DNA of 57,512 nt from Vogesella urethralis (lineage in GTDB: Bacteria; Pseudomonadota; Gammaproteobacteria; Burkholderiales; Chromobacteriaceae), in assembly GCF_007644045.2 (NCBI RefSeq), contig NZ_VMDW02000004.1, positions 1 to 57,512 on the forward strand, read 5' to 3'. Below the pieces are notes generated by a model. It had not been told where the DNA came from. It did not search any database and worked only from the letters and a program-made list of their open reading frames with translations. Position numbers and translations under genes: made by a program. Below are positions 193-53,005 of the stretch, one piece after another. The stretch's first letter is position 1. Each line of letters starts with the position of its first letter.

Positions 193-1881
193 TCAGCCGT
201 TAGCGATGTGCTGCAAATAAATCTGCAGTTCCTTTTTGCCCTGCCACTCGTTGGCGGCCAACTGGTACACCGCATCCACTTCTTCTGGCAGCCAATCCAC
301 GCGATTAAAGATCATGCCATCACATTGCACGCCGTCTTTGGCGAGGCGCAGCTTAAGGTGCTTGTCACCAACCAGGCGCTGACTCAGCACCTGGAACCGG
401 TCGCGAAACGTTGGCGGTGCGAAACCCTGGCCCCAGACCTCGGCGGCCAGGGTTTCCGCCATTTGCAGATTCAACTCCCGTGCGCTGAGGCTGCCATCGG
501 TTTCCAGCGTGCGCGTTAGCGCGTGTTGATCCAGCAGTCCTTGTGCCACCTGCTCGAATGCCTGCTGGAATGCCGCCAGACTAGGCTCGGCGATAGTGAG
601 CCCTGCTGCCATCGCGTGGCCGCCGAATTTGAGGATCATGCCCGGGTGGCGCTTGTACACCAGGTCCAGCGCGTCGCGCAGGTGGAAGCCCGGTATCGAG
701 CGCCCTGACCCCTTGATTTCGCCTTCGTCGCCCGGCGCAAACACGATGGTGGGTCGATGAAAACGTTCTTTCAGGCGCGATGCCACGATGCCGACCACGC
801 CCTGGTGCCAGTCATCGCGGTACAAGGCCAGCGTGTAGCGTTGCGCCGGGTCGAAACTGGACAGAAAAGCCATCGCTTCGTCCTGGATGCCGTGCTCGAT
901 CTGGCGCCGTTCCCGGTTAAGGCGGTCCAGTTCTTGCGCCAGCGACAAGGCTTCGGATTCGCTGCCCGCCAGCAGGCAGGCAATACCCAGGCTCATATCG
1001 TCCAGGCGCCCTGCTGCGTTCAATCTGGGGCCTAGCGTAAAGCCAAGGTCAAAGGTGTTGGCCTTGTGTGCAGCCCGGCCGGCCACCCGGAACAAGGCGG
1101 CAATGCCGGGGGCCATGCGCCCTGCCCGCATTCTTTTCAAGCCGTTATCCACCAAGATGCGATTGTTGCGGTCCAGTCGCACCACATCGGCTACGGTGCC
1201 CAGCGCCACGATGTCCAGCAGTTCGCCCAGGTTGGGCTCGGGCTGACTGGCGAAGCAACCGCGTTGCCGCATTTCTGCCCGCAGCGCCATCAGCACGTAG
1301 AACATCACACCAACACCGGCCAGGTTTTTGGATGGGAAGGTACAACCCGGCTGGTTGGGGTTAACGATCAGGGCGTCCGGCAGTACGTCGCCTGGCAAGT
1401 GGTGGTCGGTAATCAGCACTTCAATACCGCGCGCCTTGGCCGCCTTGACGCCATCTACGCTGGCAATGCCGTTATCGACCGTAATGATGATGTCGGGCTG
1501 GCTTTGTGCGGCCAACTCGACGATTTCCGGCGTCAGGCCGTAACCGTACTCGAAGCGGTTGGGCACGATGAAATCGATGACGGCACCAAGCGCGGCCAAC
1601 CCCCTCACCGCGACGGTACAGGCGGTAGCGCCGTCGGCATCGTAATCGGCCACCACCAGCATGCGTTGGCGTGCCGCAATGGCGTCGGCCAGGCGGCTGG
1701 CCATGGCCGTAATGTTTTTCATGCTCTGATAAGGCAGCAAGCCTTTCAGGGCGTAGTCCACTTCGTCGGCGCTGGCGATGCCGCGTGCGGCGTACAGTCT
1801 GGCCATCAAGGGATGGATACCCTGGGTACACAAGGCTTGCAGCGTTTCCGGCGGTGAGGTGCGGGTCAGTATCTGGGTCAT
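193..1881 (-). CDS. recJ: Single-stranded-DNA-specific exonuclease RecJ
   Basis: RecJ is a cytoplasmic 5'-3' single-strand exonuclease acting in RecF-pathway recombination and mismatch repair. The 562-residue product has the usual length for the family. DHH-phosphoesterase motifs are visible: DYDADG at about residues 79-84, TVDNG near 135, and the DHH triplet at about 159-161 (LITDHHLPGD). A GGHAMAAG motif of the DHHA1 region lies further on. I chose the ATG at 1881 because it overlaps the stop of the upstream gene in an ATGA arrangement, which indicates translational coupling; an upstream in-frame start would extend 32 residues into the neighbour. The pairing with an RpfE-like gene is also known from Xanthomonas. 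Confidence 0.97.
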   Translation of the reverse strand: MTQILTRTSPPETLQALCTQGIHPLMARLYAARGIASADEVDYALKGLLPYQSMKNITAMASRLADAIAARQRMLVVADYDADGATACTVAVRGLAALGAVIDFIVPNRFEYGYGLTPEIVELAAQSQPDIIITVDNGIASVDGVKAAKARGIEVLITDHHLPGDVLPDALIVNPNQPGCTFPSKNLAGVGVMFYVLMALRAEMRQRGCFASQPEPNLGELLDIVALGTVADVVRLDRNNRILVDNGLKRMRAGRMAPGIAALFRVAGRAAHKANTFDLGFTLGPRLNAAGRLDDMSLGIACLLAGSESEALSLAQELDRLNRERRQIEHGIQDEAMAFLSSFDPAQRYTLALYRDDWHQGVVGIVASRLKERFHRPTIVFAPGDEGEIKGSGRSIPGFHLRDALDLVYKRHPGMILKFGGHAMAAGLTIAEPSLAAFQQAFEQVAQGLLDQHALTRTLETDGSLSARELNLQMAETLAAEVWGQGFAPPTFRDRFQVLSQRLVGDKHLKLRLAKDGVQCDGMIFNRVDWLPEEVDAVYQLAANEWQGKKELQIYLQHIANG

Positions 1882-2885
1882 TGCGGGTAGAGCTCGGATA
1901 AGGGTTTGCCGGCTTGCCAGAACTTCCATAGCTGGCGACGCTGCAGCTGCAGCGTAAAGCCAGCCTCGCCATCGCAACTAAGGGTAAGCGTTTGCAACTG
2001 CCCTGCTTTCATGGCTGCCAACAGCGGGGCAAACCAGTCTTGCTCGATGCGCTGCATGGTTTCGCGCCAGCCCCAGGCGTCGCGAAACTGTGCCGGTGCT
2101 TCCAGTGCGTCCAGTACGATCAGCGCATCCTGCGGCGGACAGTCACGAAACAGGTACGGCACGGCTTCGGCTTGGCTATTGCTGGCCCGGGCGAGCGCCT
2201 GATACAGCGGGCTGTCAGCGTACAGCGGCAACTGTGGCGGCTGGGGTGCCGGGCTATCCGCCCCCTGCTCCCCCCACAGCCACAGGCTGTTGACCGGGGT
2301 GTCGCCGCGCAGCTCCCGTGCGTCGTTGGTGGCGTGGGTGTACAGCAGCATCTGCATTTCGTTCAGATAGCGGCTCCAGAGCATGCTTTGCGGGCCGGTA
2401 GGCAGGTGATGGTTGATGTCTTCGCCAATCACGTCCGGTAGCGGCGTGAAGTATGCCTGACTGGCTGCCGGCAGCGACAGGAACCAGCGGTCTGGCGTTG
2501 GTGCATGGAAGGCAAAACCGTCATCGGCAAACAGCTGGTTCAGGCTGGCTACCAGTTGATCAGCTTCGTCCTGCGACAGGTTCATGATGCCGATGTCGCC
2601 CAGCAGCGCCCGGTCACGGTCCACGCGCAGATTGACCGGGTCGGCAATCAGCCAGTGGCGGCCGGCAGTGGCCAGGCCGGCTTGCGCAGCAAGGGTGGCA
2701 GCAATGCTGGCGGCGGGCAGCCGGAAAGTGTGCAGCAGGTGCTGGCTGGGGCGGCTGGGCGTGGCTTGACGTTGGCCGCGCGCCAGCATCAGCGACAGTG
2801 ACGGCATGGGCAGCTCGCGGCAAAGGTCGGGCCCGTCGTACGGGTCGTACCAGCACAGGCCGGGTAAATGCAAAGTGAGGTTCAT
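1878..2885 (-). CDS. RpfE-like conserved protein (COG4255 type)
   Basis: A 335-residue soluble protein with no signal peptide, beginning MNLTLHLPGLCWYDPYDGPD. It resembles the RpfE family, proteins of unresolved biochemical function encoded next to recJ in Xanthomonas and many betaproteobacteria. I see acidic and aromatic motifs (for example DPVNLRVDRD and the W-rich RDAWGWRE) but no catalytic signature I can name. The ATG at 2885 is preferred over an upstream start 32 codons earlier, because the upstream extension is basic and unlike the family start. It overlaps recJ by four bases, so the two form an operon. The assignment rests on neighbourhood and general resemblance. Confidence 0.7.
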   Translation of the reverse strand: MNLTLHLPGLCWYDPYDGPDLCRELPMPSLSLMLARGQRQATPSRPSQHLLHTFRLPAASIAATLAAQAGLATAGRHWLIADPVNLRVDRDRALLGDIGIMNLSQDEADQLVASLNQLFADDGFAFHAPTPDRWFLSLPAASQAYFTPLPDVIGEDINHHLPTGPQSMLWSRYLNEMQMLLYTHATNDARELRGDTPVNSLWLWGEQGADSPAPQPPQLPLYADSPLYQALARASNSQAEAVPYLFRDCPPQDALIVLDALEAPAQFRDAWGWRETMQRIEQDWFAPLLAAMKAGQLQTLTLSCDGEAGFTLQLQRRQLWKFWQAGKPLSELYPQ

Positions 2886-3149
2886 GCGGGTACCGGTCCG
2901 GTCAATTTCGGACAAAAGTTTTCTTGGCGCCAGAACCTTCCCCACTGCCGCACTGTCTGTTGGTGCAGGTTTTCGCGCCAAGCATGACTAATGGTTTGAT
3001 TTGGCACGGATTTTAGGTTGGCGGGCGCCGATGTTTTTTGCTAGCATCGCCTGCTTCGATATTTTCTGCCACAAAGCAACACGCTGCATTGTGGTGGTAC
3101 CCAAGCTGATTCGCCATTCAGGGCGATAGATGCTGCACGAGTCAACGGA

Positions 3150-4484
3150 ATGAAGAATTATCGCAAACTGCTGGCCTTCCCGCAAAAGTGGGTGGCGCGC
3201 CTGATCAACAACCCGATGACCTGGCTAGGTCTGGCGGCCAGCCTGCCGTTCACCGGCGCCCTGACGGCGGTGGCCATTACCCAGCAAACGGCACTGCCGG
3301 AAAAGCCACCGCTGAGCCAGCAGGTTACCGAGGCGTTAAGCTTACCGCCGCTATCGCTCGCCCAGGCCAGCGGTGTGCGCTACTGGCGCGACGAAGCCGT
3401 GCAACGCGGCGACACCATCGCCCGCTTGCTGAACCGGCTGGGCGTGGGGGACGGCGAGGCGACCCGCTTCATTCATTCCAGCCCGTTGTCACGTGACCTG
3501 CTCAAGCTGAAAACCGGCGCCACCCTGTCGGTAGAAGTAAACGACCAGGGCGAGCTGTTTGGCCTGCGCTTTCTCAACGACGACGAGAACGGCGAAAAAG
3601 TGCTGGTGATGCTGGAAAAGCGTAACGGTGAATGGCAGGCCAGCGCTGATGCGCCGCAAACCGACACCATGCAGACAGTACGCTCGGTCGTCATTCGTAC
3701 CAGCGTCAGCGGCGCACTGGCCCAGGCACAAGTGCCGGTGGAGGTGCGTGCCGGCCTTAGCGAGATTTTTGCCGACCAGCTACCGCTGAACAAGCTGCGC
3801 CCGGGCGACAAGATCAATCTGGTATACGAAACGCTGCTCTACAAAGGTGCGCCGCTGGCCACGGGCAACATCTTGGCCGCTGAAGTCCTGCACGATGGCA
3901 AAACCTACCAGGCGTTTTACTTTGCCCACGATGCTGAAGCCGGTGCCTACTACGACGCCGCCGGCAAGCCGCTGAAAAAAGGCTTCGTCATGCAGCCGGT
4001 AAATGCCCGTATCAGCTCGGGCTTCGGCATGCGCTTTCATCCTATTCTGCGCTCGCTGCGCATGCACGAAGGGGTGGATTACGCCGCCGCAGAAGGCACA
4101 CCCATCGTGGCGCCGTCCGACGCCACGGTGAGTAGCGTGTCGCAACAGACCGGTTACGGTAATGTCGTGGTGCTGAAGCACAGCGGCAAGCTGTCCACGC
4201 TGTCCGCGCACATGAGCCGTTTCCAGCCTGGCTTGGCGGCGGGCAGCCGGGTGAAGGCGGGTGACATCATCGGCTTTGTCGGTAGCACTGGGCGCTCTAC
4301 CGGGCCACACCTGCATATGGAAGTGCTCGTCGATGGTCAGCCGGTAGACCCGGCTACCACCGCCCTGCCGGTGCCGGGCCTGTCGGCCAACCAGCGCTTG
4401 GCCTTCCGCGAGGGGAGCGTTAAGCTGGCGGCCAACCTCAAGCTGCTCAGGGATATCCCGGTCAGCGTGGCCCAGCTGGACTGA
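3150..4484 (+). CDS. M23-family murein metalloendopeptidase
   Basis: A 444-residue inner-membrane-anchored or exported peptidoglycan DD-endopeptidase of the MepM/YebA type. Residues about 21-46 form one hydrophobic segment that acts as signal anchor. The middle (about residues 75-125) looks like the OapA/LysM-like domain that precedes M23 domains in this subfamily. The LytM zinc site is intact: H306 and D310 in MHEGVDYA, and H387/H389 in GPHLHMEV, with the typical GYGNVVVLKH and STGRSTG segments between. It is transcribed divergently from rpfE-recJ. The next gene, anmK, recycles muropeptide sugars, which fits a cell-wall theme. The cut bond cannot be read from the sequence. Confidence 0.92.
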   Translation: MKNYRKLLAFPQKWVARLINNPMTWLGLAASLPFTGALTAVAITQQTALPEKPPLSQQVTEALSLPPLSLAQASGVRYWRDEAVQRGDTIARLLNRLGVGDGEATRFIHSSPLSRDLLKLKTGATLSVEVNDQGELFGLRFLNDDENGEKVLVMLEKRNGEWQASADAPQTDTMQTVRSVVIRTSVSGALAQAQVPVEVRAGLSEIFADQLPLNKLRPGDKINLVYETLLYKGAPLATGNILAAEVLHDGKTYQAFYFAHDAEAGAYYDAAGKPLKKGFVMQPVNARISSGFGMRFHPILRSLRMHEGVDYAAAEGTPIVAPSDATVSSVSQQTGYGNVVVLKHSGKLSTLSAHMSRFQPGLAAGSRVKAGDIIGFVGSTGRSTGPHLHMEVLVDGQPVDPATTALPVPGLSANQRLAFREGSVKLAANLKLLRDIPVSVAQLD

Positions 4485-4503
4485 GCCACGATTCCGGCTA
4501 ACC

Positions 4504-4531: not shown

Positions 4532-4532
4532 C

Positions 4533-5642
4533 ATGTCTGAAATTTTTATCGGTTTGATGTCCGGCACCAGCCTGGACGGTGTCGATGCGGTGGCGGTGGA
4601 TTTTGCCACCCACCCGATGCGAATCATCGGCGAGGCCTTCGTGCCATACGATGCCGATATTCGCGCGCAAGTACTGTCGCTGCAGGCGGTGGGGCACAAC
4701 GAGCTGGCGCGCAGCGCCATGCTGGCCAATCGCCTGGCGCATTGCTACGCCGATGCCGTGGCCGCCGCCTTGCAGGCCTGCCAGCTGAGTGCTACCGCAG
4801 TGCGCGCCGTGGTGTGCCATGGCCAGACCATCCGGCATGCGCCACAGGATGGTTACACACTGCAGATCGGCAACCTCGCCTTGCTGGCCGAGCTGTGCGG
4901 CATCGACGTCATTGGCGACGTGCGTAGCCGCGACGTGGCTGCCGGTGGCCAGGGCGCACCACTGGTGCCGGCTTTCCACCAGGCGCTGTTTGCCAGCGCC
5001 GAGCTGCCACGCGTCATCCTCAATATCGGCGGCATTGCCAACCTGACCCGGCTCAGCCCGGGCCTGCCGGTAATCGGCTTCGATACCGGCCCCGGCAACA
5101 TGCTGCTGGATGCCTGGATTCGTCGCCATCAAGGCCTGGACTACGATGATGGTGGTACCTGGGCGGCCAGCGGCCATTGCCAGCCGGCCCTGCTGGCACG
5201 GCTGCTGGAGGAGCCCTATTTTGCCGCCAGCTTACCCAAGAGCACCGGCCGCGACCTGTTCGATCTGCCGTGGCTGGAAGCCCACCTGGACGCGCACAGC
5301 CGCCAGCATGGCGCCATAGCGGCAGCAGATGTACAAGCCACGCTGCTGATGCTGACCGCCTGCAGCATCGCCGACGCCATCCGTAGCTGTGCCGCAGAAT
5401 GCCGCGAAATCTACGTCTGTGGTGGTGGCGCTCGCAACCCCGCGCTGATGCAGGCACTGGCGCAGCAATTGCCGTCCACGCGCATCGATACCACCGCCAG
5501 CCTGGGCCTGCCGCCACAGCAAGTAGAAGCGGCCGCGTTTGCCTGGCTGGGTTGGTGCTTCAGTCAGCGGCGTGCGGCCAACCTGCCCGAGGTAACCGGT
5601 GCCCGCGGTTTCCGCCTGCTGGGTGCTTTGTATCCATGCTAA
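4533..5642 (+). CDS. anmK: Anhydro-N-acetylmuramic acid kinase
   Basis: AnmK phosphorylates 1,6-anhydro-MurNAc with ring opening to give MurNAc-6-phosphate, a cytoplasmic step of peptidoglycan recycling. The 369-residue product has the family length and begins with the signature GLMSGTSLDGVDAV. Further conserved pieces are VCHGQTIRH, LNIGGIANLT, GFDTGPGNMLLDAW and the late CGGGARN nucleotide-binding motif. The start at 4533 is unusual: its only ribosome-binding-like sequence (AGGG) lies in the 3' arm of a terminator hairpin. The gene follows an M23 endopeptidase gene; both act on peptidoglycan, but the terminator suggests they are not simply co-expressed. Confidence 0.96.
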   Translation: MSEIFIGLMSGTSLDGVDAVAVDFATHPMRIIGEAFVPYDADIRAQVLSLQAVGHNELARSAMLANRLAHCYADAVAAALQACQLSATAVRAVVCHGQTIRHAPQDGYTLQIGNLALLAELCGIDVIGDVRSRDVAAGGQGAPLVPAFHQALFASAELPRVILNIGGIANLTRLSPGLPVIGFDTGPGNMLLDAWIRRHQGLDYDDGGTWAASGHCQPALLARLLEEPYFAASLPKSTGRDLFDLPWLEAHLDAHSRQHGAIAAADVQATLLMLTACSIADAIRSCAAECREIYVCGGGARNPALMQALAQQLPSTRIDTTASLGLPPQQVEAAAFAWLGWCFSQRRAANLPEVTGARGFRLLGALYPC

Positions 5643-5680
5643 TTTGCGTCATGTCGATAAAATATCAGCAGAATTGCCGA

Positions 5681-8016: not shown

Positions 8017-8050
8017 CGCTGCTGCGGCCAACCTTATATGTTCCTGTTCC

Positions 8051-8132: not shown

Positions 8133-9218
8133 ATGCCTGCCCTACTGCAAGAACCCGCGTTCCGCCACGACTACACCCCGAAAACCGGCGTCCTGCTGAT
8201 CAATCTGGGTACGCCCGCTGCCCCCACCGCCAAGGCGCTGCGGCCTTACCTCAAACAGTTTCTGTCCGACAGCCGCGTTATCGAGATTCCGAAAGCGGTC
8301 TGGTGGTTCATTCTGAACGGCATCATCCTGAATGTGCGCCCGCGCAAAAGCGCGGCCAAGTACGCGTCGATCTGGACCAAAGACGGCTCCCCATTGCTGG
8401 ATCACACCCGTAAACAGGCTTCGCTGTTGAAAGGCCTGCTGGGCGAGCAAGGCCACCGCAACCTGGTGGTGGAGTACGCCATGCGCTATGGCCAGCCGTC
8501 GGTTGAGCAAACCTTGGTAAAAATGCGCGAAGCCGGCGTCGAACGCCTGCTGGTGGTGCCGCTGTATCCGCAGTACGCCGGCTCGTCCAGCGCCACCGCA
8601 CTGGACGATGTCTTCCGGACGCTGATGAGGATGCGGAACATGCCCGAGGTGCGCACGGTCCGCCATTTTCACGATCATCCCGGCTACATCCAGGCACTGG
8701 CGCAGAATGTGCGTGAGTTCTGGCGCGTCAATGGCCGTGGCGACAAGCTGGTGATGAGCTTTCACGGCGTGCCGCGCTTTACGCTGGACAAAGGCGACCC
8801 GTACCACTGCGAATGCCTGAAGACCGGTCGCTTGCTGGCCGAGGCACTCGGCCTTGGCAAAGACGAGTACGTCGTCAGCTTCCAGAGCCGCTTCGGCAAG
8901 GCTGAGTGGATCAAGCCCTACACGACCGAAGTGCTGACCGGACTGGCCAACGCCGGTGTAGCGAAAGTGGACATCCTGTGTCCGGGTTTTGTCAGCGACT
9001 GCCTGGAAACGCTGGAAGAGATTGCCATGGAAGGAAAAGAGGATTTCCTGACCCACGGTGGCAAGGAGTACCGCTACATCCCTTGCCTGAACGAACACCC
9101 AGCATGGATTTCAGCCCTGTCCGAGCTGGTTGCGGCCAACCTTGGTGGCTGGATAACAACAGTAGATGATGCAGAAATGCGACAGCAACGCGCCCTGAAC
9201 TGTGGCGCAAAAAGCTAG
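8133..9218 (+). CDS. hemH: Ferrochelatase
   Basis: HemH inserts ferrous iron into protoporphyrin IX, the last step of protoheme synthesis, at the cytoplasmic face of the membrane. The 361-residue product has the typical bacterial length. The family start [12 protein letters not shown] follows a short N-terminal tail. SFHGVPR at about residue 209 carries the conserved metal-site histidine, and [11 protein letters not shown] the second conserved block. I placed the start at ATG 8133 because the 19 extra codons upstream run through the ftsK terminator. A terminator at 9240 separates it from the next gene. Confidence 0.95.
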
Positions 9219-13421: not shown

Positions 13422-14288
13422 TCAGCGCGGGAGCTGCTGCGCCATCGCTTCGCCCAGGCGTACCGGTTTGGCCGGCGCCCAATCGCTATTGAAGCGCACG
13501 CTGTCTTTGGGGTAGAGCAAGACCACGGTAGAGCCCAGCAGGAAGCGCCCCATCTCGTCGCCTTTTTTCAGCACGATGTGTTGATCGTCGTAACGCCATT
13601 CGCGCACCTCGCCACTGCGCGGCGGGTTCACCACGCCGTGCCACACGGTTGCCATGCTGCCCACTATGGTGGCGCCTACCAGCACCAGAACGAACGGGCC
13701 GTTATCGGTAGCAAATTCGCACACCACGCGCTCGTTGCGCGCAAACAGACCAGGCACGCCGCGGGCAGTGGTGGGGTTGACCGAAAACAACTCACCCGGT
13801 ACGTGGATCATGCGCAGCAGTCGGCCGTCGGCCGGCATGTGGATGCGGTGATAGTCACGCGGGCTGAGGTAAATGGTAGCAAAGTGGCCGTTTTCAAACT
13901 GTGCGGCCAACTGGCGGTCACCACCCACCAGCGCGGTGGTGCTGTAGCTATGGCCTTTGGCCTGGAAGATCTGGTCTTGCTCGATGGCGCCAAACTGGCT
14001 GATGGCGCCATCCACCGGGCACACATAGTCGGCATTCGCCAGCGGGCGTGCACCGGGCTTGAGCTCACGGGTAAAAAAACTGTTGAAGGTGGGGTAGCTG
14101 GCCGGGTCCGGGTTGGCCGCCTCCGCCATGTTTACCTTGTAGCGTCGGATGAAACGCTCGATCAGGCGCGTGGTGGCTTCACCGCCGGCCTTGTTGGCAA
14201 TGCGGCCAGCCAGTTCGGTCAGTGCCTGTTTGGGTAGCAGGTATTGCGGCAGCACAGCAAGACGATAGCGCACGGTTGCACCTTCCAT
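13422..14288 (-). CDS. psd: Phosphatidylserine decarboxylase proenzyme
   Basis: Psd makes phosphatidylethanolamine from phosphatidylserine at the inner membrane. The proenzyme self-cleaves at a LGST motif to create the pyruvoyl cofactor; here the motif is in GRFLLGSTVVLL near the C-terminus. The 288-residue length, NSFFTRELKPGARP near residue 70 and the DYHRIHMP block are typical of the long proteobacterial form. The ATG at 14288 gives the family-like start, but a TATAAT box at 14304-14309 (minus strand) leaves a leader of only about ten bases, so initiation may use a very short leader or the GTG at 14273. Confidence 0.95.
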   Translation of the reverse strand: MEGATVRYRLAVLPQYLLPKQALTELAGRIANKAGGEATTRLIERFIRRYKVNMAEAANPDPASYPTFNSFFTRELKPGARPLANADYVCPVDGAISQFGAIEQDQIFQAKGHSYSTTALVGGDRQLAAQFENGHFATIYLSPRDYHRIHMPADGRLLRMIHVPGELFSVNPTTARGVPGLFARNERVVCEFATDNGPFVLVLVGATIVGSMATVWHGVVNPPRSGEVREWRYDDQHIVLKKGDEMGRFLLGSTVVLLYPKDSVRFNSDWAPAKPVRLGEAMAQQLPR

Positions 14289-36000: not shown

Positions 36001-36077
36001 GGTGTGCTCCTTTGTATGGCACGGCTGCGGCCAACCCTGGCAGGCAGCGCGGGCTCTTTTATCGATATCGTAAAGTG

Positions 36078-37674: not shown

Positions 37675-38328
37675 ATGAAGACCGCTACCGCCTCTACCCT
37701 GCAAGATGAAACCTACGACACCCTGCGCCACTGGCTGATGCTGGGCCGCTGGCTGCCCGGCGAACGGCTGAAGATCAAGCACCTGGCCGACGAAATGGGC
37801 GTCAGCCAGATGCCGGTTCGGGCGGCGCTGCAAAGGTTGGCCGCCGAAAAGGCGCTGGTGAACATTCCCAACTGCGGCGTGGCGGTGCCACAACTGACCA
37901 TCAGCCAGTTTGACGACATCCTGCTCAACCGTATCCTGCTGGAAGGCCAGGCGGCCTGGCTGGGTGCCCGCCACCTGGACGCCGGTGGCCGCGCCGGTTT
38001 GGCGGCCTTGTGCCAGGCCATGGACGCCGCCATCGTCGCCGATGACGTCAAAGCCTATCTGGATGCCAACGAACAGTTCCACTTGCAGCTGTACCAGGCC
38101 AGTGGCTCGCCGGTGCTGTTGTCGCTGATCGAAACGGTGTGGCTATACGTCGGCCCCATTTCCAACCAGTTGCACCAGGACCTGGCCGTCTGGAAAACCA
38201 TGAATGATGCTCACACCGCCCTGCTGCAGGCATTGCAAGCCGGCGATGCCGACGGGGTACGTGCCGCCATCGAGCAAGACCTGCGCACAGCAGGTAGTTA
38301 CCTGAGGCAGCTATGTCGCGCTAGCTAG
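37675..38328 (+). CDS. GntR-family regulator, FCD subfamily
   Basis: A 217-residue regulator. The N-terminal winged helix (about residues 10-75) contains GRWLPGERLKIKHLADEMGV and SQMPVRAALQRLAAEKALV. The C-terminal FCD ligand domain (about 85-210) is all helical with conserved acidic and histidine metal ligands (DANEQFHLQLYQASG, MNDAHTALLQAL). The start at ATG 37675 gives the usual short N-terminus; an earlier ATG at 37591 would lie within the operator. It faces the GS/aminotransferase operon and probably represses it until an amine-related effector binds. Confidence 0.92.
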   Translation: MKTATASTLQDETYDTLRHWLMLGRWLPGERLKIKHLADEMGVSQMPVRAALQRLAAEKALVNIPNCGVAVPQLTISQFDDILLNRILLEGQAAWLGARHLDAGGRAGLAALCQAMDAAIVADDVKAYLDANEQFHLQLYQASGSPVLLSLIETVWLYVGPISNQLHQDLAVWKTMNDAHTALLQALQAGDADGVRAAIEQDLRTAGSYLRQLCRAS

Positions 38329-41041: not shown

Positions 41042-42028
41042 CTAGTCGCGCAACCGGCGCTGGATGTCCAGCACCTGCTCCAGACTGTCCAGGAAGGCGT
41101 CCAGCACCTGCGGGTCAAAGTGCATGCCGCGCTGGGCGCGCATGAAATCCAGCGCCCGATCGATTTCCCACGCCGGCTTGTACGGCCGCGACGACGTCAG
41201 CGCATCAAACACGTCGGCCACCGCTACAATGCGCGCCGCCATCGGAATGGCATCGCCCGCCAGGCCCGCCGGATAACCACTGCCGTCGTACTTTTCGTGG
41301 TGCCCCAGCGCAATATCGTGCGCCATTTGCAGCAAGGGTAGCTCGCTGCCTTGCAGAAAATCGGCGCCACGGGCAGCGTGGGTTTTCATGATGTCGAACT
41401 CTTCCGGCGTCAGCTTGCCCGGTTTGAGCAGGATGTGGTCGGGGATGGCAACCTTGCCAATGTCGTGCATCGGCGCCGCCAGGAAAATGCGCTCCTCGAT
41501 TTCCGGGCCCAGGCCGAGCTTGGTGGCAATGATCTGCGCATAGAACGCCATGCGTTCGATGTGCTTGCCGGTTTCCGGGTCGCGCGATTCGGCGATGTGA
41601 GACAGCCGGATTACCAAGTCCTGGGCTGCCACCTCGCGCAGCTGACGCTGCGCGCGGCGCAGTTTCAACAGGTTCTGGATGCGGGCACGGGTTTCTGCCG
41701 GGTCTACCGGCTTGGCCAGAAAGTCGGTGGCGCCGCCTTCCAGCGCATTCTGCCGCACTTCTTTCATGTCGCTGGTCGTGACCATGATCACCGGAATATC
41801 CTGGATGTGCGGCAGCTCGCGCAGCGCTTTGACCATACTCAGGCCGTCCATGCCCGGCATCATGTAATCGGTCAGGATCAGGTCCGGCGTGTTGTGCTGG
41901 CACCAGAGCAGCGCATCCTCAGCGCTATTCATTGTCAACGGCTCGCAGTTATCCATGCGGCCAACCAGATGCCGCAGCACCATCAGGTTGGTCGGATTGT
42001 CATCGACAATCAAAACACTCATTTTCAT
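41042..42028 (-). CDS. HD-GYP response regulator (c-di-GMP phosphodiesterase)
   Basis: A 328-residue cytoplasmic two-domain protein. The receiver (about residues 1-120) has the acidic pair in LIVDDNPTN, phospho-acceptor Asp in LILTDYMMPGMDG and Lys in DFLAKPVDP. The HD-GYP domain (about 135-325) shows the HD pair in APMHDIGKVAIPDHILLKPG and the GYP motif in DGSGYPAGLAGDAI. RpfG-like enzymes of this layout hydrolyse c-di-GMP. No histidine kinase partner is directly adjacent, but a hybrid kinase is transcribed divergently about 0.8 kb away. Confidence 0.93.
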   Translation of the reverse strand: MKMSVLIVDDNPTNLMVLRHLVGRMDNCEPLTMNSAEDALLWCQHNTPDLILTDYMMPGMDGLSMVKALRELPHIQDIPVIMVTTSDMKEVRQNALEGGATDFLAKPVDPAETRARIQNLLKLRRAQRQLREVAAQDLVIRLSHIAESRDPETGKHIERMAFYAQIIATKLGLGPEIEERIFLAAPMHDIGKVAIPDHILLKPGKLTPEEFDIMKTHAARGADFLQGSELPLLQMAHDIALGHHEKYDGSGYPAGLAGDAIPMAARIVAVADVFDALTSSRPYKPAWEIDRALDFMRAQRGMHFDPQVLDAFLDSLEQVLDIQRRLRD

Positions 42029-42817: not shown

Positions 42818-45445
<2,628 letters not shown>

Positions 45446-45508: not shown

Positions 45509-48397
45509 TTAGTCCCCGACGTACACGAACGGTGCCCAGAAAAACGGGTGCGCCCGGCTCATCGCCACGCCTTGCTGCTGCCACTGGCTGGCTCGCAATG
45601 CATCACGCGCCGCTTCGATGGCGCGCGCACTCTCCTGCCCCTGCTGCAACTGGGCAAAGGTTGACACCATCAGTTCCTGCGTGGCCTGGCTTTCTACCGC
45701 CCAGTGGCTCACCAGCAAGCCGTGGGCGCCGGCGTACATGAACGCGCGCGCCAGGCCGGCAAAGCCCTCGCCACTGCCGGCCGCCTGCTGCTCGCCGGCG
45801 GTATTGCAGGCGGACAGCACCACCAGCTGGGCAGACAGCCGCAGGTGTTCGGCCACCTCGCCCATGGTCAGCAGGCCGTCCTCGCCGCGCAACTCGCCAC
45901 TAAGCGACAACAGCAATGCCGGCTGGGGCCGCTGCACGGCCGCCGCTTCGGCGCCGTCGAGCGCGGTTTTCACTGCTGCAAATTCCCCACCCAACAAACC
46001 ATGGGTAGCAAAGTGCAGATAGCGGGTGTGCGACAGGTCCAGCTGCTTCAGCGTGTACTCCTGCGCGTCCTGCGCCAGATAAACCCGGCTGCGGCCGCCC
46101 AGCAAGGCGGCAATGCTGCGGGCCTCTTGTGCGGTTTCCGGCAGGCGCGGAATCTCGATGTTTTGCTTGGCCTTGCGATAGCTGCGTGACAACACCGTGT
46201 CCAGCCAGCTGCCACCCGCCGGTTGCGTCAGCTCGAACTGCGGGTCGGCAAACGTCACCAGGCTGGTGGTGTACGCCGGCGGTGCCGGCTGGTAAAGCCG
46301 CTTGGATACCAGCGTCGACAGGCTGGGCAGATAGGCAAAATGGTAGCGGGCCTGCAGGTACGGCAAGGTGCCAAACTCGCCCAGTAACGGCCCTTGCGTC
46401 CGGGCAACGGCAAATGCCTGACGGTCGGCGTCGTCCCAGCGGGTAACCAGCATCTCCAGCGGCAAGGTATGCAAGGCACCATCGCCCACCACCAGAACGC
46501 GACCGCCGGCAGGCAGCGCGCTTTCCAGCGGCTGTATCAGTTGGCGGTAGGCCTGGTGCAACAGCGCCGGGTCCAGTTGCCGTAGCGCCGCCAGGCTATC
46601 ACCGCCCGCCTCTTCCGGCTGCCGGATGGCGCCGACCAGCTTGCCGACAGCGTCACGCCCCAGCGGCAGATTGAACAGCTGGAAGCGGTCGCGGCCAACC
46701 ACAAAGGCTAGCGTGCGATCCGGCAGCAAGGCGTAGCTGAGCAAGGCCTCGTTGTCACGCAGTACCCGCTGCTGCAATTCGTCGACAGTCACCGCCCGCG
46801 GCTGCGCCAGGTCCATGATGCGGGGGTAACTGGCCCACAGCTGCTGCTGCACGCTGTCGAGCTCGGTCTGTACCGCCAACAGTGCCTGCAAGGCCTGCAC
46901 CCGGCTGGGCGGCGCCGCGGTGGTGTCGGGCGGGGCTGTCGCCGCTTCGTCATCGTCGGCGTCCACTTCGTCCAGCCCGCCAGTATTGGCCAGCTGCAGG
47001 CGCAAGGCCTGCAAGCGCCCCTGTGCCTGGGCCTGGCGCTGCAACAAGGCCTGGTAGCCGGGTTCGGCCGACAGCCGGCCGGCATCGGCCTGGCGCATCA
47101 GCTCGCTGAACAGACGGCTTTGCGTGCGCGACACCACGGCTAGCATCTGGCGATCGTACCCCTGCTGCGGCTGGCTGGCGTGCAGCGCGGCCAACAGGTT
47201 CAGCGTACGGATATAGAACGGCCCGTAACGCTGGATGAAGCCTTCCCGCAGTCCATCGTCCAGCCCGCGCGTTTGCACGAACAGTTTGTCGATGGCGTCC
47301 AGCCCCTTGTAGGCCTGCGTCAAGGCTTGCTGCTGACGGCCGCCCTGTTGCTGCAGCTGCAGTAGCAGATCGGCGGTATCGATATAGGACGCCAGGCTGC
47401 CCAGCCGTTCGTGCTGCGGCAAGGCCTGCTGCAACAGCGGCTCGGCGGCGCGGGCCTGCCCGGCCAGCAACAGGCCGCGCGCCAGATTGGTGGCGGCATC
47501 GGCGGTGATCGGGTTGGCCGCACCAAAGTGGCGATTGCCCAGCTGGTAGGCCGCTTGCAGCAGCGGCAAGGCCTGTTCCGGCTTGCCCTGGCGCTGCCAT
47601 ACGTCGGCCAGCGCGGTCTGGGTACTGATGATATCGCCGGGGCGCAGCGGCTGGGCAGCAAGGTTGGCCGCCAGCGTGGCCGACAGGGCCTGGCGCGACT
47701 CGTCCAGCCGGCCCAGGCCGCGCAGGCACAAACCACGCTGGTACTGGGTTTCCCGCCGCGCTCGCGCTACCCAGGCTTCGCCGGAGCGGTTGTCATCCGG
47801 GTCGATCGGCGCGGCAACCACCGGATAAGCCGCCGCTTTGTCCAGAATGGCCAGCGCCTGCGCCGGCTGCCCCAGCTGGCGCAGCACCTTGGCCTGCACG
47901 TTCCACAGATCCAGCATGCCCACGCGGTCGGGGCCCAATTGCTGCATGCGCACCAAAGCGTCGTCGATCAGGCGCATGGCTTCGCCGTACCGGTTTTGCC
48001 TTACCAGCAGGCTGATCAGGTTCTGCTGCGCGTGCACCACCGGGCGCGAAATGCGGCCATGGGCTTTTTCCACCATCGGCAAGGCCTGGCGGGTGGCCAG
48101 CTCTGCCTCTACCAGCTTGCCCTGCTTGGTCAGAACGGAGCCCAGATTACGGTAGGCGTTGCCGATGGCGCGGTTGCGGCCGGTCTCCAGACTGAGGCGC
48201 AAGCGCTCGCGGGCCAGGCTTTCTGCCCGGTCGAAATCTTCTTCCAGCAAAGCGCGGTTGAATGCCGCACCAATCGCCGTCAGCGTGCCGCCCTGGTTGG
48301 GCGGTTTGGTCTGGGCCACAGCACCATGGGCAAGCGCGGCCAACAGCAGCGCCAGCAACCACGGCCGCCGGCGATAGCGAGGGATGGGGTGGGACAT
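45509..48397 (-). CDS. Exported TPR-CHAT protease-like protein
   Basis: A 962-residue secreted protein: signal peptide (cut after AVA at about residue 28), TPR repeats over about residues 40-400, a coiled-coil stretch near 440-540 with an acidic insert (DEVDADDDEAATAPPD), and a C-terminal CHAT domain (about 640-962). CHAT is a caspase-fold peptidase domain; its dyad is visible as H799 in YLHFATHGLLGGE and C864 in LVVLSACNTAGE. The end HPFFWAPFVYVGD is typical. It is the last gene of a unit with an OmpA-like protein, a metacaspase and a small exported protein, overlapping the latter by one base. Substrates are unknown. Confidence 0.9.
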   Translation of the reverse strand: MSHPIPRYRRRPWLLALLLAALAHGAVAQTKPPNQGGTLTAIGAAFNRALLEEDFDRAESLARERLRLSLETGRNRAIGNAYRNLGSVLTKQGKLVEAELATRQALPMVEKAHGRISRPVVHAQQNLISLLVRQNRYGEAMRLIDDALVRMQQLGPDRVGMLDLWNVQAKVLRQLGQPAQALAILDKAAAYPVVAAPIDPDDNRSGEAWVARARRETQYQRGLCLRGLGRLDESRQALSATLAANLAAQPLRPGDIISTQTALADVWQRQGKPEQALPLLQAAYQLGNRHFGAANPITADAATNLARGLLLAGQARAAEPLLQQALPQHERLGSLASYIDTADLLLQLQQQGGRQQQALTQAYKGLDAIDKLFVQTRGLDDGLREGFIQRYGPFYIRTLNLLAALHASQPQQGYDRQMLAVVSRTQSRLFSELMRQADAGRLSAEPGYQALLQRQAQAQGRLQALRLQLANTGGLDEVDADDDEAATAPPDTTAAPPSRVQALQALLAVQTELDSVQQQLWASYPRIMDLAQPRAVTVDELQQRVLRDNEALLSYALLPDRTLAFVVGRDRFQLFNLPLGRDAVGKLVGAIRQPEEAGGDSLAALRQLDPALLHQAYRQLIQPLESALPAGGRVLVVGDGALHTLPLEMLVTRWDDADRQAFAVARTQGPLLGEFGTLPYLQARYHFAYLPSLSTLVSKRLYQPAPPAYTTSLVTFADPQFELTQPAGGSWLDTVLSRSYRKAKQNIEIPRLPETAQEARSIAALLGGRSRVYLAQDAQEYTLKQLDLSHTRYLHFATHGLLGGEFAAVKTALDGAEAAAVQRPQPALLLSLSGELRGEDGLLTMGEVAEHLRLSAQLVVLSACNTAGEQQAAGSGEGFAGLARAFMYAGAHGLLVSHWAVESQATQELMVSTFAQLQQGQESARAIEAARDALRASQWQQQGVAMSRAHPFFWAPFVYVGD

Positions 48398-48855: not shown

Positions 48856-48866
48856 GGTATCGGGCC

Positions 48867-50357
48867 TCAGGGTTGTTCGCGGATAGTCAGCAAGGCCGCA
48901 GCAAAACTATCGCTGCAACCGCGGCCAACTTGCAGATTGCGCCGCGTCTGGTCTGGCACGCACTTGCCACGGCCAAGCGTTTGCTGCAGCAGCGAACGCC
49001 CTTCGCCATCCAGCAAGGTATGCATGAACGGGCCGGCGCTATCGCCTTTCAGCGCGGCCGTATCGCGCGGGGTATCGCTAAGCAGCACCAGCAAAGTGTT
49101 GTCGCCGGCCGGGCCGCCGGCGGTAATGCGCCAGCTGGCACGGGGCAAATCGATCGTCTTGCCCGCTTGCACGCGGTTGTCGCCATCCAGCTGGTTCGGG
49201 TATAGCAGGTACAAGCTTTCGCCGTCCGACCCGGCCATCGCCAGGTAAAGATAGCCATCGCGGTCCGGTGTGATGTGCAGCTGTAAGGCATCCTTGCCGA
49301 TGCTGAGCGCGTTCTTGTCCGGCACCACCGTCAATTGGCGCCGGCCATCGCGCTGGGCGTGGACCTCGCCCAGCAGGGCTGCCGGCGCAAGGGGCTTGGC
49401 CGCCTCCGGCGTCGGCGTGGCCGGGGCGGTAAACGCCGCCTTGATCCAGGCGGGCACAAACTGCTGGTTACCCCCCAGCGTCATGTGCTGGCCCAGCACA
49501 CCCGACACGTTGGCCAGGTTACTGTCCAGCCGGGTTTGGGCGCAGCGGGTGATCTCGTCGACGGTGATGGCACCGCTGCCATCCAGGTCCTGTGCTTCAC
49601 CCAGCAGACAGTCGCGCCAGGCGGTGGTGGCCAGCCCGCCTTCCTTGCTATTGTCGAACGACACTTCATCCGGCCGGCTGGCCGCAATATGCACCACGTT
49701 TTGCGGCACGCTGCCCTGCTGTTGCAGGGCGGTGCTCAGCGAGCGGGTGCGGAAGTTACTGGGCTGGAAGCAGGCGTCGGCGCTGCCTTTGCTCACCACC
49801 TTGGGCGTGAGGTTGGCCGCACCCAGCTTCAGCGAACGGGTGAGGAACGGTTTGCCCGCCACGCCGCCAGAAAAGCAGGCGTCGTAAAACACCATCATCT
49901 TGTCGGCTTTGGCAGCGACCGGCGCCAGCAGCTGGCTGATCATCTTGTTGCTCAGCACCTGGCCATCGGTGGCCACCAGGCCTTCGGTGCACACGCCGTC
50001 CGGCGCGTCCGGCTCGTGCCAGCGGGTGCCATGACCGGAGTAGTACACGAAGACGCGATCACCCGGCTGCAGCCGCTGGTCTAGCGCCTTGATCTGGGCG
50101 GTCATTTCGTCCACTGTGGCCGCCGCATCGCGCACAAAGTGCATGTTCTGCGGCGGAATGCCCATGCTTTGCGCCATGCGCCGTGCGCTGTCCATGTCGT
50201 GCTGTACGCCGGCCAGCGAAGTGATGGCGGCATTGCTGTACTGCCCGATGCCGATGATCAATGCGTGCCGGCTGGCCGCAGCATCCTGCCCCAGCGCCGA
50301 CAGCGGCAGCGCCGCTACCAACAGCGAGCCTGCCAGCGTGATGATACGATGCTTCAT
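48867..50357 (-). CDS. Exported metacaspase (peptidase C14) with EF-hand-like loop and DUF4384
   Basis: A 496-residue protein. After a signal peptide (about 1-23, cut after ALG) comes the caspase p20-like domain: RHALIIGIGQYSNAAI at 30-45, catalytic H109 in YYSGHGTRW and C161 in FYDACFSGG. Residues 257-268 (DLDGSGAITVDE) form a canonical EF-hand calcium loop. A DUF4384-like domain (about 345-440; LQLHITPDRDGYLYL, LYLLYPNQLDGDNRV) follows, then a Cys-containing tail. AGGAG seven bases before ATG 50357 sets the start. It lies between OmpA-like and small exported genes in one operon. Arg/Lys specificity would be expected from metacaspases but is not shown. Confidence 0.92.
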   Translation of the reverse strand: MKHRIITLAGSLLVAALPLSALGQDAAASRHALIIGIGQYSNAAITSLAGVQHDMDSARRMAQSMGIPPQNMHFVRDAAATVDEMTAQIKALDQRLQPGDRVFVYYSGHGTRWHEPDAPDGVCTEGLVATDGQVLSNKMISQLLAPVAAKADKMMVFYDACFSGGVAGKPFLTRSLKLGAANLTPKVVSKGSADACFQPSNFRTRSLSTALQQQGSVPQNVVHIAASRPDEVSFDNSKEGGLATTAWRDCLLGEAQDLDGSGAITVDEITRCAQTRLDSNLANVSGVLGQHMTLGGNQQFVPAWIKAAFTAPATPTPEAAKPLAPAALLGEVHAQRDGRRQLTVVPDKNALSIGKDALQLHITPDRDGYLYLAMAGSDGESLYLLYPNQLDGDNRVQAGKTIDLPRASWRITAGGPAGDNTLLVLLSDTPRDTAALKGDSAGPFMHTLLDGEGRSLLQQTLGRGKCVPDQTRRNLQVGRGCSDSFAAALLTIREQP

Positions 50358-50374
50358 GCGCCTACTCCTGTCTG

Positions 50375-51046
50375 TCACGGTGCCAGATTAACAATGCGTA
50401 CCCGGCGGTTTTCTGCCGCAAACGGCTGCGACGGCAGCGCCAGCTGGCTGGCCCCCATGCCGATACTGCTCAGCCGCGCGGCGGCCACGCCCTGGGCAAC
50501 CAGCAGCTGACGCACTTCGTCGGCGCGGGCTTGCGACAGCTTGCGGTTGTAACCAGCCTGCCCCTTGGCGTCGGTGTGGCCTTCGATACGGAAACGGTAC
50601 GCGGCCAACTCCGGCGACAGCAGCGCCTGTGCCAGCTGCTGCAGTGTTTGGCGGCTGGCGGCGCTGACGCGGGCGGAGTTGTATTCGAACTGGATGGCCA
50701 GCGAGACGCTCGGCGCGTCGGCGGCAACTTCGGTAGCGGGGGCTGGCGAAGGCGAGACGGCTGGCGCAGACGGTGCCGGCTGCGCGATAACAGGTGGCGA
50801 CACCGGCGCTACCTGCACCGCTGGCGGCGTAACTGTCGCAGGTGGCGTGGGTTCAGGCACAGCAGCAGGCGGTGCCACCGGCACAGCGGGGGCGGCCGGC
50901 GGCACGGCTTGCACCGTGAGGTTACGCAGGCCGCGGGTCGTGCCGGGTTTCAGCAACCGGATCAGCGCCTCGGCGTCGGGTTCGGCCTGGGCGTACGCCA
51001 GCGAGGGCAGCAGCATGGCCAGCAACAGACAGACGGTTTTTTTCAT
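50375..51046 (-). CDS. OmpA-family peptidoglycan-binding protein with Pro/Ala linker
   Basis: A 223-residue exported protein: signal peptide (cut after AYA, about residue 19), a short segment containing IRLLKPGTTRGLRNLTV, a Pro/Ala/Val-rich linker (about 45-105), and an OmpA C-terminal domain (about 110-223) with IQFEYNSARVSAASRQTL, RIEGHTDAKGQAGYN and NRRVRIVNL. Such domains bind diaminopimelate in peptidoglycan. An upstream reading frame extends far past the ATG at 51046 but into the neighbouring gene region. It is the first gene of the caspase/CHAT operon, 17 bases before the metacaspase, and could hold the complex at the cell wall. Confidence 0.88.
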   Translation of the reverse strand: MKKTVCLLLAMLLPSLAYAQAEPDAEALIRLLKPGTTRGLRNLTVQAVPPAAPAVPVAPPAAVPEPTPPATVTPPAVQVAPVSPPVIAQPAPSAPAVSPSPAPATEVAADAPSVSLAIQFEYNSARVSAASRQTLQQLAQALLSPELAAYRFRIEGHTDAKGQAGYNRKLSQARADEVRQLLVAQGVAAARLSSIGMGASQLALPSQPFAAENRRVRIVNLAP

Positions 51047-51156
51047 GTTTGCGGGAACCTTATCGAATACCCGCATGGTAGCAGAGACAGCACCGACATT
51101 GCCGTGTCGCCTTGCAGGCGGCTCGTTTTCACTGCCCGGCGTGCCACAGCGCGCAC

Positions 51157-51945: not shown

Positions 51946-52073
51946 CAGCAGCCCCTTGCCGGCAGACCCGACGCCTGCGGGCCTGCGCCCCGACCTGGTA
52001 CGGGCATGCTCTTCCATGCCTGCAACAGACCGGCCGGTAAAATCACACGGATGTGCATCGCGCCTCCGAACAA

Positions 52074-52107
52074 TATATAAAATTCTAATATTTAAGTTTA
52101 TTATATA
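52074..52107. promoter_or_regulatory. AT-rich palindrome between TauE-like and MBL genes
   Basis: TATATAA (52074-52080) and TTATATA (52101-52107) frame a 20-base AT-rich core in otherwise GC-rich DNA. The arms can act as -10 boxes in both directions. AT-rich inverted repeats of this sort are the targets of BigR/SqrR-type sulfide sensors; no such regulator gene is in the window. Confidence 0.6.
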
Positions 52108-52141
52108 CATATTCGATTGCGACACAACGATTGGAGCCAGC

Positions 52142-53005
52142 ATGACCGTGCATGTCGAGCCCTTCTTTGACCCGACCACCTTCACCTGCAGCTATGTCGT
52201 CAGCGACCCGCTCAGCCGGCAATGCGCCATCATCGACCCGGTACTGGACTACGACCCGGCCTCCGGCCGTACGCAGCACCAGCATGCCGACAAGATGCTG
52301 GCCTACGTGCGCCAACAGCAGCTGCAGACCGAGTGGCTGCTGGAAACCCATGTCCATGCCGATCACCTGTCGGCCGCGCCCTACTTGCAGCAGCAACTGG
52401 GCGGGCGGCTCGCTATCGGCGCCGGCATCACCCGGGTGCAGGAAACCTTCGGCCAGCTGTTCAACGCAGGCAGCGGCTTTGCCACCGACGGCAGCCAGTT
52501 CGACCACCTGTTCCACGATGGCGAACGCTTCCAGTTAGGTACCCTGAGCGCAGAAGCCCTGCATACCCCCGGCCACACCCCGGCCTGCATCAGCTACCGC
52601 ATCGGCGACGCCGTGTTCGTCGGCGATACCTTGTTCATGCCCGACTATGGCACGGCGCGTTGCGACTTCCCCGGCGGCGACGCCGCCACGCTGTACCGCT
52701 CGATCCAGAAACTGTTCGCCCTGCCAGACGACACCCGGCTGTTCCTGTGCCACGACTACAAGGCCCCCGGCCGGGATCACTACGCGTGGCAGACCACCGT
52801 GGGCGAGCAACGGCAGCACAATGTGCACGTGCGTGACGGCATCAGCGAACAGGCCTTCGTCAGCCTGCGGCGCGCCCGCGACGCCACCCTGGCCATGCCG
52901 GCGCTGATGTTGCCATCGGTACAGGTGAACATGCGCGGCGGCCAACTGCCCGCCGCCGAAGACAATGGCGTGCGCTACCTGAAGATTCCGCTGAACACGC
53001 TATAA
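52142..53005 (+). CDS. Metallo-beta-lactamase-fold hydrolase, persulfide dioxygenase-like
   Basis: A 287-residue metallohydrolase of the ETHE1/Blh group. The metal motif THVHADHLSAAPYL (HxHxDH) is at about residues 65-78, with HTPGHTPACISY and VGDTLFMPDYGTARCDFPGG following and CHDY near residue 203. Family members oxidise glutathione persulfide or act in biofilm-linked sulfide detoxification. GGAG lies five bases before the ATG. It is divergent from a TauE/SafE permease across an AT-rich palindrome; the pair suggests persulfide oxidation coupled to sulfite export. It is the last chromosomal gene before the integrated element. Confidence 0.9.
   Translation: MTVHVEPFFDPTTFTCSYVVSDPLSRQCAIIDPVLDYDPASGRTQHQHADKMLAYVRQQQLQTEWLLETHVHADHLSAAPYLQQQLGGRLAIGAGITRVQETFGQLFNAGSGFATDGSQFDHLFHDGERFQLGTLSAEALHTPGHTPACISYRIGDAVFVGDTLFMPDYGTARCDFPGGDAATLYRSIQKLFALPDDTRLFLCHDYKAPGRDHYAWQTTVGEQRQHNVHVRDGISEQAFVSLRRARDATLAMPALMLPSVQVNMRGGQLPAAEDNGVRYLKIPLNTL

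Follow-up and report, generated by a model that had tools for sequence, protein, structure and literature searches.

Introduction

To our knowledge, word-specific DNA uptake is known from just two bacterial families, Neisseriaceae and Pasteurellaceae. In Pasteurellaceae, the uptake signal sequence (USS) consists of a core word with AT-rich flanking tracts. The same two families are named for word-specific uptake in PMC7811141. Frye et al. (2013) described eight dialects of the DNA uptake sequence (DUS), all of which carry CTG at positions +6 to +8, and the DUS definition also includes an A at +10 (PMC3630211). All eight dialects likewise appear with CTG in a modelling paper of 2025 (PMC12061091). 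Here, we analyzed a DNA stretch of 57,512 nucleotides from Vogesella urethralis (contig NZ_VMDW02000004.1), below called the window, which contains dispersed copies of the 9-mer GCGGCCAAC. Vogesella is placed in Chromobacteriaceae, Neisseriales (NCBI). Sequence comparisons make it highly probable that GCGGCCAAC, or TGCGGCCAACCTT when extended, serves as the DUS of Vogesella and belongs as one of several dialects to a family-wide set built on the core CGGCCAAC.

The receptor of the Neisseria DUS is ComP, in which two disulfides (four cysteines) hold the DD region; N. subflava ComP contacts DNA via this region and the beta1-beta2 loop (PMC4906244). For the Pasteurellaceae USS, PpdA/ComN is the predicted receptor (PMC12616744). 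HIP1 (highly iterated palindrome 1, GCGATCGC) of cyanobacteria is a palindrome tied to methyltransferases (PMC4390886). According to Frye et al., an obvious DUS is lacking in five genomes, namely those of Laribacter, Lutiella, Pseudogulbenkiania and two Chromobacterium, and their Supplementary Table S1D lists over-represented 10-mers of five genomes of this kind (PMC3630211).

Results

The excess of GCGGCCAAC is a property of the genus Vogesella

The genome to which the window belongs (4.03 Mb, 157 contigs) harbors 3,461 copies of GCGGCCAAC, 1,716 on the plus and 1,745 on the minus strand. The reversed control word is found 86 times (44 plus, 42 minus), which corresponds to a forty-fold excess of GCGGCCAAC. 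All 13 Vogesella genomes contain between 2,312 and 3,490 copies. Among 137 other relatives, counts did not exceed 313 in 48 genomes of the same family and 222 in 89 genomes of the same order. An even draw of 273 further genomes across the class, one of which (G108) is also among the 137 relatives, again gave a top count of 222. As high counts were restricted to the 13 Vogesella genomes, the excess is a property of the genus.

Within the window (GC content 61.8%), GCGGCCAAC is the most frequent 9-mer. Its 44 exact copies, 27 on the plus and 17 on the minus strand, amount to one per 1.31 kb. Chance would give 2.02 copies on average and 6 at most (100 dinucleotide shuffles), and a second-order Markov model predicts 3.4. 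A first-pass annotation, made from the letters of the window, had slightly undercounted the motif at 41 copies (26 plus, 15 minus). The span it gave, 254..52946, and its density of about one copy per 1.3 kb agree with our recount, in which the first copy starts at 254 and the last one occupies 52938-52946. It had also noted copies in several reading frames and on both strands; all six settings (AAN; GGQ/SGQ/RGQ; RPT; VGR; GWP; LAA) are present. Intergenic copies exist as claimed, although our simple gene caller places three of the 44 between genes (8024, 21388 and 36027) and not two. The copy at 21388 sits inside a reading frame of 150 amino acids that was omitted by the gene caller, and the status of the copy at 36027 hinges on the choice of start codon. 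The reported flank preference holds in part, with TGCGGCCAACC present at 15 of the 44 copies. Close inverted pairs (40 nucleotides apart or less) do not occur within the window. The copies are as follows (positions, strand, setting).

254..262, plus strand, recJ-like gene (opposite strand), LAA
1508..1516, plus strand, recJ-like gene, LAA
1592..1600, plus strand, recJ-like gene, LAA
2771..2779, minus strand, coding, RGQ
4428..4436, plus strand, coding, AAN
5574..5582, plus strand, coding, AAN
8024..8032, plus strand, intergenic, TGCGGCCAACCTT context, directly past the ftsK-like gene
9132..9140, plus strand, coding, AAN
13903..13911, plus strand, coding, LAA
14112..14120, minus strand, coding, AAN
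14939..14947, plus strand, coding, LAA
16418..16426, minus strand, coding, AAN
17024..17032, plus strand, coding, VGR
18295..18303, minus strand, coding, GWP
18677..18685, minus strand, coding, RPT
18808..18816, plus strand, coding, VGR
20233..20241, plus strand, coding, LAA
21388..21396, minus strand, intergenic per gene call, overlapped by the uncalled 150-amino-acid frame
25738..25746, minus strand, coding, VGR
27369..27377, plus strand, coding, AAN
28462..28470, plus strand, coding, SGQ
31920..31928, minus strand, coding, LAA
32167..32175, plus strand, coding, AAN
32926..32934, minus strand, coding, AAN
33151..33159, minus strand, coding, AAN
34922..34930, plus strand, coding, LAA
35881..35889, minus strand, coding, AAN
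36027..36035, plus strand, intergenic per gene call, start-codon dependent
37836..37844, minus strand, coding, LAA
39332..39340, plus strand, coding, AAN
41957..41965, plus strand, coding, VGR
43514..43522, plus strand, coding, AAN
44341..44349, minus strand, coding, LAA
45205..45213, minus strand, coding, LAA
46691..46699, plus strand, coding, VGR
47187..47195, plus strand, coding, LAA
47513..47521, minus strand, coding, AAN
47663..47671, minus strand, coding, AAN
48336..48344, plus strand, coding, LAA
48785..48793, plus strand, coding, LAA
48921..48929, plus strand, coding, VGR
49812..49820, minus strand, coding, AAN
50601..50609, plus strand, coding, LAA
52938..52946, plus strand, coding, GGQ

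The FtsK-like gene (5716-8016) and the RecJ-like gene (193-1881) of the window are ordinary neighbours and provide no evidence on the role of the motif.

Vogesella encodes a ComP ortholog and further competence proteins

The first-pass annotation had proposed to look for a ComP-like minor pilin and for competence genes. A pilin of 138-144 amino acids was first recovered from 12 of the 13 Vogesella genomes. Since the Pfam family ComP_DUS turned out to be unspecific, matching 56 of 61 relatives, it was dropped as a marker and replaced by a Vogesella-only profile and a tree. The profile detected an ortholog in all 13 genomes (E 8e-54 to 4e-73), and the next family members scored 4e-35 or weaker. 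Compared with solved structures, the profile matched ComP 2m3k best (E 2e-11), followed by a geopilin chain, 2nba and 5hz7. The geopilin chain came as a close second, but its match was confined to the N-terminal helix. The structures 2m3k, 2nba and 5hz7 are those of ComP from N. meningitidis and N. subflava (PMC12061091, PMC4906244). In the Neisseriaceae control genome G103, the best profile match (75 bits, next 52) is the ComP protein of that genome, as its own match to 2m3k shows (E 2e-64). When 67 pilins were placed in a tree, 31 ComP candidates, including two from Neisseriaceae, fell into one group (99/98) apart from the 36 others, and the Vogesella sequences formed one group (98/96). Several long branches meet there, so that the finer placement is unsure. 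The predicted model of Vogesella ComP reached a mean pLDDT (predicted local distance difference test) of 83.8. Judged by sequence, profile and tree, the Vogesella pilin is a ComP ortholog.

The comP locus was compared across five Vogesella genomes, and in all five the gene faces aroB, aroK and pilQ-like genes (aroB and aroK read by eye). The pilQ-like homologues were found in all five and pilP-like ones in three of these comP neighbourhoods, to which the search for PilQ and PilP was confined; AMIN/STN domains and the PilP domain were each found in one representative. Three of the five loci also have a GspH-like pilin homologue upstream of comP, and the Pfam GspH match belongs to its homologue from genus g3. 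ComEA scored above the cut-off in 13 of 13 and ComEC in 11 of 13 Vogesella genomes. In several sister genera, comP sits within a series of pilin-related genes or follows it, in contrast to the pilQ-aroKB side in Vogesella. These differing neighbourhoods indicate that comP has moved.

Sister genera carry dialects with a common core

A 40-kb sample from one genome of each of nine other genera of the family (g2-g10) was searched for over-represented words. In five of them the top 10-mer contained the core CGGCCAAC, either as TTCGGCCAAC (g2, g3, g5 and g10) or as CTCGGCCAAC (g4). The samples of g6-g9 gave no top 10-mer with this core, a call that relies on 40 kb of one genome per genus plus the dialect counts and might overlook a word that is rare or degenerate. 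Whole genomes contained 1,104, 893 and 183 copies of TTCGGCCAAC in g2, 2,168 and 579 in g3, 1,245 in g5 and 1,851 in g10. Genus g6 is split, with 1,368 copies in one species (G017) versus 11-36 in nine congeners. CTCGGCCAAC, which was counted for family members up to G042 (30 of the 48 non-Vogesella family genomes), reached 1,590 and 1,940 copies in g4. The 13 Vogesella genomes contain 8-34 copies of TTCGGCCAAC and 14-40 of CTCGGCCAAC. The dialects thus differ at their 5' ends, which read TG- in Vogesella, TT- in g2, g3, g5, g10 and one g6 species, and CT- in g4. Inverted pairs of the sister words were seen in the samples of g2, g3, g4 and g5 (four of five genera sampled) and were absent from those of g10 and G017. 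Among aligned sister-dialect sites, 3 of 18 match a Vogesella copy; the reverse comparison gave 3 of 21. Most sites are therefore not common between dialects, and homology of position was not upheld.

The known Neisseria dialect was not found in this family. GCCGTCTGAA stayed at background in 61 of 61 family genomes searched, and the same method counted 1,863 copies in the Neisseriaceae genome G103 (1.8 Mb). The first-pass annotation had described the motif as unlike the known dialects.

Some samples contained other over-represented words. In G021 (g10), the palindrome GCTTAAGC is over-represented beside the uptake-like word, GCTTAAGCA occurs 15 times in 40 kb versus 0.25 expected, and TGCTTAAGCA is found 10 times over both strands. 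A 40-kb sample of G010 contains the palindrome TGCCGGCCGGCA 8 times when both strands are counted (0.18 expected). In G075, from another family, TTTTCTATTA may be a further dispersed word, with 9 copies in 40 kb versus 0.13 expected.

A ComP loop may follow the word

ComP of the ten dialect-bearing sister genomes matched the Vogesella profile with E 4e-26 or better, versus 2e-25 at best in 38 genomes without a dialect; the margin is thin, kinship is uncontrolled, and the CT- word was counted in 30 of these 48 genomes. A further pattern emerged in what we take as the beta1-beta2 loop, a segment placed by the profile opposite 'IARGALDSKF' in the Neisseria protein. Word-bearing genomes have the motif N[T/A/V]Dx[G/D] in 22 of 23 ComP sequences (the exception is G021 of g10); it is present in none of six from word-less genomes and in neither of the two from Neisseriaceae. 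The pattern was noticed by inspection and hence has the status of a hypothesis. The sole kinship-controlled contrast is between G017, which has an NTDxG loop, and three congeners that lack it. G017, the only one of ten g6 genomes with an uptake-like word, provides a natural experiment on how such a word is gained or lost. With the second disulfide missing in Vogesella, word reading, if performed by ComP, would have to lean more on the loop.

Could the uptake word be read by a different minor pilin, such as the GspH/FimT-like one encoded beside comP? The GspH-family homologue occurs in the three neighbourhoods mentioned above, FimT acts elsewhere as a DNA-uptake pilin (PMC8897410), and Vogesella ComP is devoid of a Neisseria-type DD region. 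We nevertheless consider such a reader unlikely because ComP is the DUS receptor of Neisseria (PMC4906244), because its orthologs are encoded in every Vogesella genome and because the ComP loop motif tracks the CGGCCAAC-type word.

GCGGCCAAC is scarce in putatively acquired DNA and unoriented along the replichores

The main contig of the Vogesella genome G004 (3.7 Mb) contains 177 copies per 200 kb (ten 20-kb stretches; 0.885/kb), compared to 7 copies per 160 kb (0.044/kb) on its second contig of 164.5 kb with 52% GC. The second contig appears plasmid- or phage-like; few of its genes show host-like codon usage, and it encodes an ArdC-N-type protein. Two genomes were sampled more widely: G000, the genome of the window (454.6 kb from the window and three contig stretches, 11% of the genome), and G001, a one-contig relative (400 kb in 20 evenly spaced stretches). 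In G001, 11 of 15 5-kb segments below 61% GC were empty, as opposed to none of 65 above 61%; one non-empty low-GC segment is mostly masked (3,878 N). The G000 sample yielded about 4.7 copies per 5 kb in 74 segments of at least 61% GC, 3.0 in 10 segments and 2.0 in 6 segments below 58%, and no segment was empty even at low GC. Judging from their GC content, the GCGGCCAAC-poor stretches would represent horizontally acquired DNA. One low-GC stretch of G001 (G001:C1:621001-641000) with a single motif copy, large unknown proteins, two ParB-like proteins and one recombinase-like protein (read by eye) resembles an integrated island.

The contrast between the two contigs of G004, one rich in copies and the other nearly free of them, would also fit a chromosome-maintenance site, be it Chi, KOPS (FtsK orienting polar sequences) or a binding site for SMC (structural maintenance of chromosomes) or nucleoid proteins. 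However, just 127 of 272 copies on the G001 replichores have the leading orientation (p = 0.30), and 117 of 258 without a zero-skew stretch (p = 0.15). This lack of orientation is evidence against Chi or KOPS, and identity with either was ruled out. Inverted pairs and genus-by-genus dialects would be unexpected as well. A maintenance site is therefore very unlikely, and chromosome organisation, an alternative offered by the first-pass annotation, is disfavoured by the missing strand bias.

Alternatively, GCGGCCAAC might accumulate as the target of an orphan methyltransferase or of a restriction system, as discussed for cyanobacterial HIP1. Dispersed, lineage-specific words of that kind do exist in high copy (PMC4390886), but GCGGCCAAC is non-palindromic, restriction normally depletes its target, and neither the scarcity in islands nor the match with a ComP ortholog would be explained. 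We regard this origin as very improbable, and restriction avoidance, also considered in the first-pass annotation, is hard to reconcile with a word that is over- and not under-represented.

Conservation was examined in pairwise alignments of G000 with the 12 other Vogesella genomes (179 kb, 79% identity; the genomes are related, both directions were counted, and the sets are not independent). Here, 164 of 302 copies were intact, compared to 22% when all 9-mers are pooled and 34% on average across 434 frequent 9-mers. GCGGCCAAC ranks 34th among these 434, and some of the higher-ranked ones overlap the motif. The alignments support an upkeep of the word at aligned loci that is real but not extreme.

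GCGGCCAAC is sharply defined and exceeds codon-aware expectations

The information content around the copies is centred on T-GCGGCCAAC-C-T-T and lost within about four flanking bases, by which a longer repeat family or mobile element was ruled out. The T at -1 reaches 97% in G001 spacers. One-base variants do not exceed 2.1x expectation versus 14x for GCGGCCAAC itself, which demonstrates a sharply defined word. Mean copy spacing is 1,136 and 1,173 nucleotides in the two sampled species; meningococcal DUS are spaced by about 1,150 nucleotides (PMC2397512). With a variance/mean per 5 kb of 0.49 and 0.73 (segments of at least 58% GC), the copies are distributed more evenly than random.

Among neighbouring copies at most 40 nucleotides apart, 54 of 55 pairs were inverted (p = 3e-15), 44 of the 54 in spacers. 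Six hand-picked inverted pairs were folded, and five formed hairpins with z -3.4 to -8.3 against shuffles; the sixth was weak (z -1.8). With a T or A run close to 8 of 41 spacer pairs, some inverted pairs would likely act as terminators.

Genes were called with a simple dicodon model. In the G000 sample, genes contain 298 copies (0.735/kb) and spacers 96 (1.947/kb), which makes spacers 2.6-fold denser. The G001 sample has 163 copies in genes (0.498/kb), 108 in spacers (1.480/kb) and one straddling; 18% of this sample was left uncalled, so its spacer counts may contain missed genes. A second-order model predicts 2.0 spacer copies for G000 and 2.6 for G001. Spacer density was highest between convergent genes (3.1-3.2/kb), followed by tandem (2.0-2.1) and divergent ones (1.0-1.3). 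Synonymous codon shuffling retained 39.1 coding copies in G000 (standard deviation 7.6, maximum 65; 50 shuffles) and 22.0 in G001 (standard deviation 4.5, maximum 35). A stricter shuffle that preserves codon context (30 shuffles) retained 48.4 and 29.0, respectively. Codon usage or Ala-Ala context as the source of GCGGCCAAC was thus ruled out by two types of synonymous shuffle, in line with the first-pass annotation, which had judged protein conservation alone inadequate. It had named counts that match a codon-shuffled model, or no excess in intergenic DNA, as speaking against its proposal; given the excess over shuffles in genes and the excess in spacers, the opposite was found. Although the majority of copies are coding, with AAN (109/298) and LAA (91/298) settings prevailing, the probability that GCGGCCAAC merely results from codon usage, from Ala-Ala motifs or from terminators alone is negligible, since shuffling retains just 39 of 298 and 22 of 163 copies, spacer density exceeds coding density, and single copies outnumber close pairs.

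Discussion

The first-pass annotation had suspected a DUS-like motif in a relative within Neisseriales. Genome-wide counts, shuffles, spacers, aligned loci, ComP and competence genes all bear this out, and we conclude that GCGGCCAAC most probably serves Vogesella in DNA uptake. The annotation had not recognised the word as one of several dialects across the family. The observed word, its distribution and dialects, and the genes for ComP, ComEA, ComEC and PilQ/PilP-like proteins suggest the following scheme. ComP would be a minor pilin on a type IV competence pilus and would bind double-stranded DNA bearing the word. Pilus retraction would draw the bound DNA through PilQ, ComEA and ComEC would pass it inward, and homologous recombination would swap the local segment. 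If word-bearing DNA enters more often than foreign DNA, the word would spread to about one per conversion tract.

Several observations weigh against this interpretation. ComP has two cysteines in 11 of 13 Vogesella genomes, and the four-cysteine DD region is missing; in G001 and G010 the extra two cysteines are in the N-terminal helix. The net charge of ComP is zero or below in nine of the 13. ComEC fell below the cut-off in two of 13 genomes, one an assembly of 330 contigs and the other 88% complete. ComP homologs are also present in genera without a visible word (g6 minus one species, g7 and g8), so ComP alone fails to predict the word. CTG occurs on neither strand of the consensus TGCGGCCAACCTTG. 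Just 8 of 41 inverted spacer pairs have TTTT or AAAA within 12 nucleotides. Finally, among the matches listed in the open-access literature, none reports that Vogesella is naturally competent.

Likewise, no report of GCGGCCAAC or of a Chromobacteriaceae DUS was found among the matches listed (open-access literature, no preprints), and the sole core match in a DUS paper among them is a cloning primer. Among these matches, we could thus trace no earlier description of what is very probably the DUS of Vogesella and one dialect in a CTG-free Chromobacteriaceae set; the first-pass annotation had known of none for the motif. If TTCGGCCAAC is in Table S1D of Frye et al., it has already been printed there without the DUS label. 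A more far-reaching proposal is that Chromobacteriaceae possess a CTG-free DUS family of at least three 5' dialects, read chiefly by the loop of a ComP without DD region, and that word and loop changed together. We give this proposal even chances. If true, the CTG rule would apply to a single branch.

A third lineage, in which an orthologous receptor is paired with a different word, would provide natural variation in both partners. Through this variation one could test which residues of ComP are responsible for reading the word and how word and receptor change jointly without loss of function. Moreover, the word may help to spot islands and foreign stretches in these genomes, and its addition to donor DNA may aid genetics in freshwater bacteria. 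Genetic tools already work in V. indigofera, an environmental species (PMC12826045).

Among known systems, HIP1 resembles GCGGCCAAC as a short, highly iterated and lineage-restricted word. In contrast to HIP1, GCGGCCAAC is non-palindromic and co-occurs with competence genes. The Pasteurellaceae USS is a genome-wide self label of the competence kind as well, and the letters TGCGG are common to GCGGCCAAC and the Haemophilus USS core. It belongs, however, to other bacteria, the flanks of the Vogesella word lack an AT-rich tract, and the predicted USS receptor is PpdA/ComN instead of ComP. The closest counterpart is the DUS of Neisseriaceae with its eight dialects around GCCGTCTGAA. Both words occur about once per kb, on both strands and in close inverted pairs, both are scarce in DNA taken to be acquired, and the dialects vary at the 5' end; Vogesella also encodes the ComP ortholog, ComEA and ComEC. 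The Vogesella word differs in its core CGGCCAAC, which lacks CTG, and in its occurrence in Chromobacteriaceae, and the corresponding ComP differs in having no DD region with two disulfides and, in nine of 13 genomes, no net positive charge. Because both the CTG core and the DD region are absent, we file the system as a variant of the Neisseriaceae DUS and not as a further Neisseria dialect.

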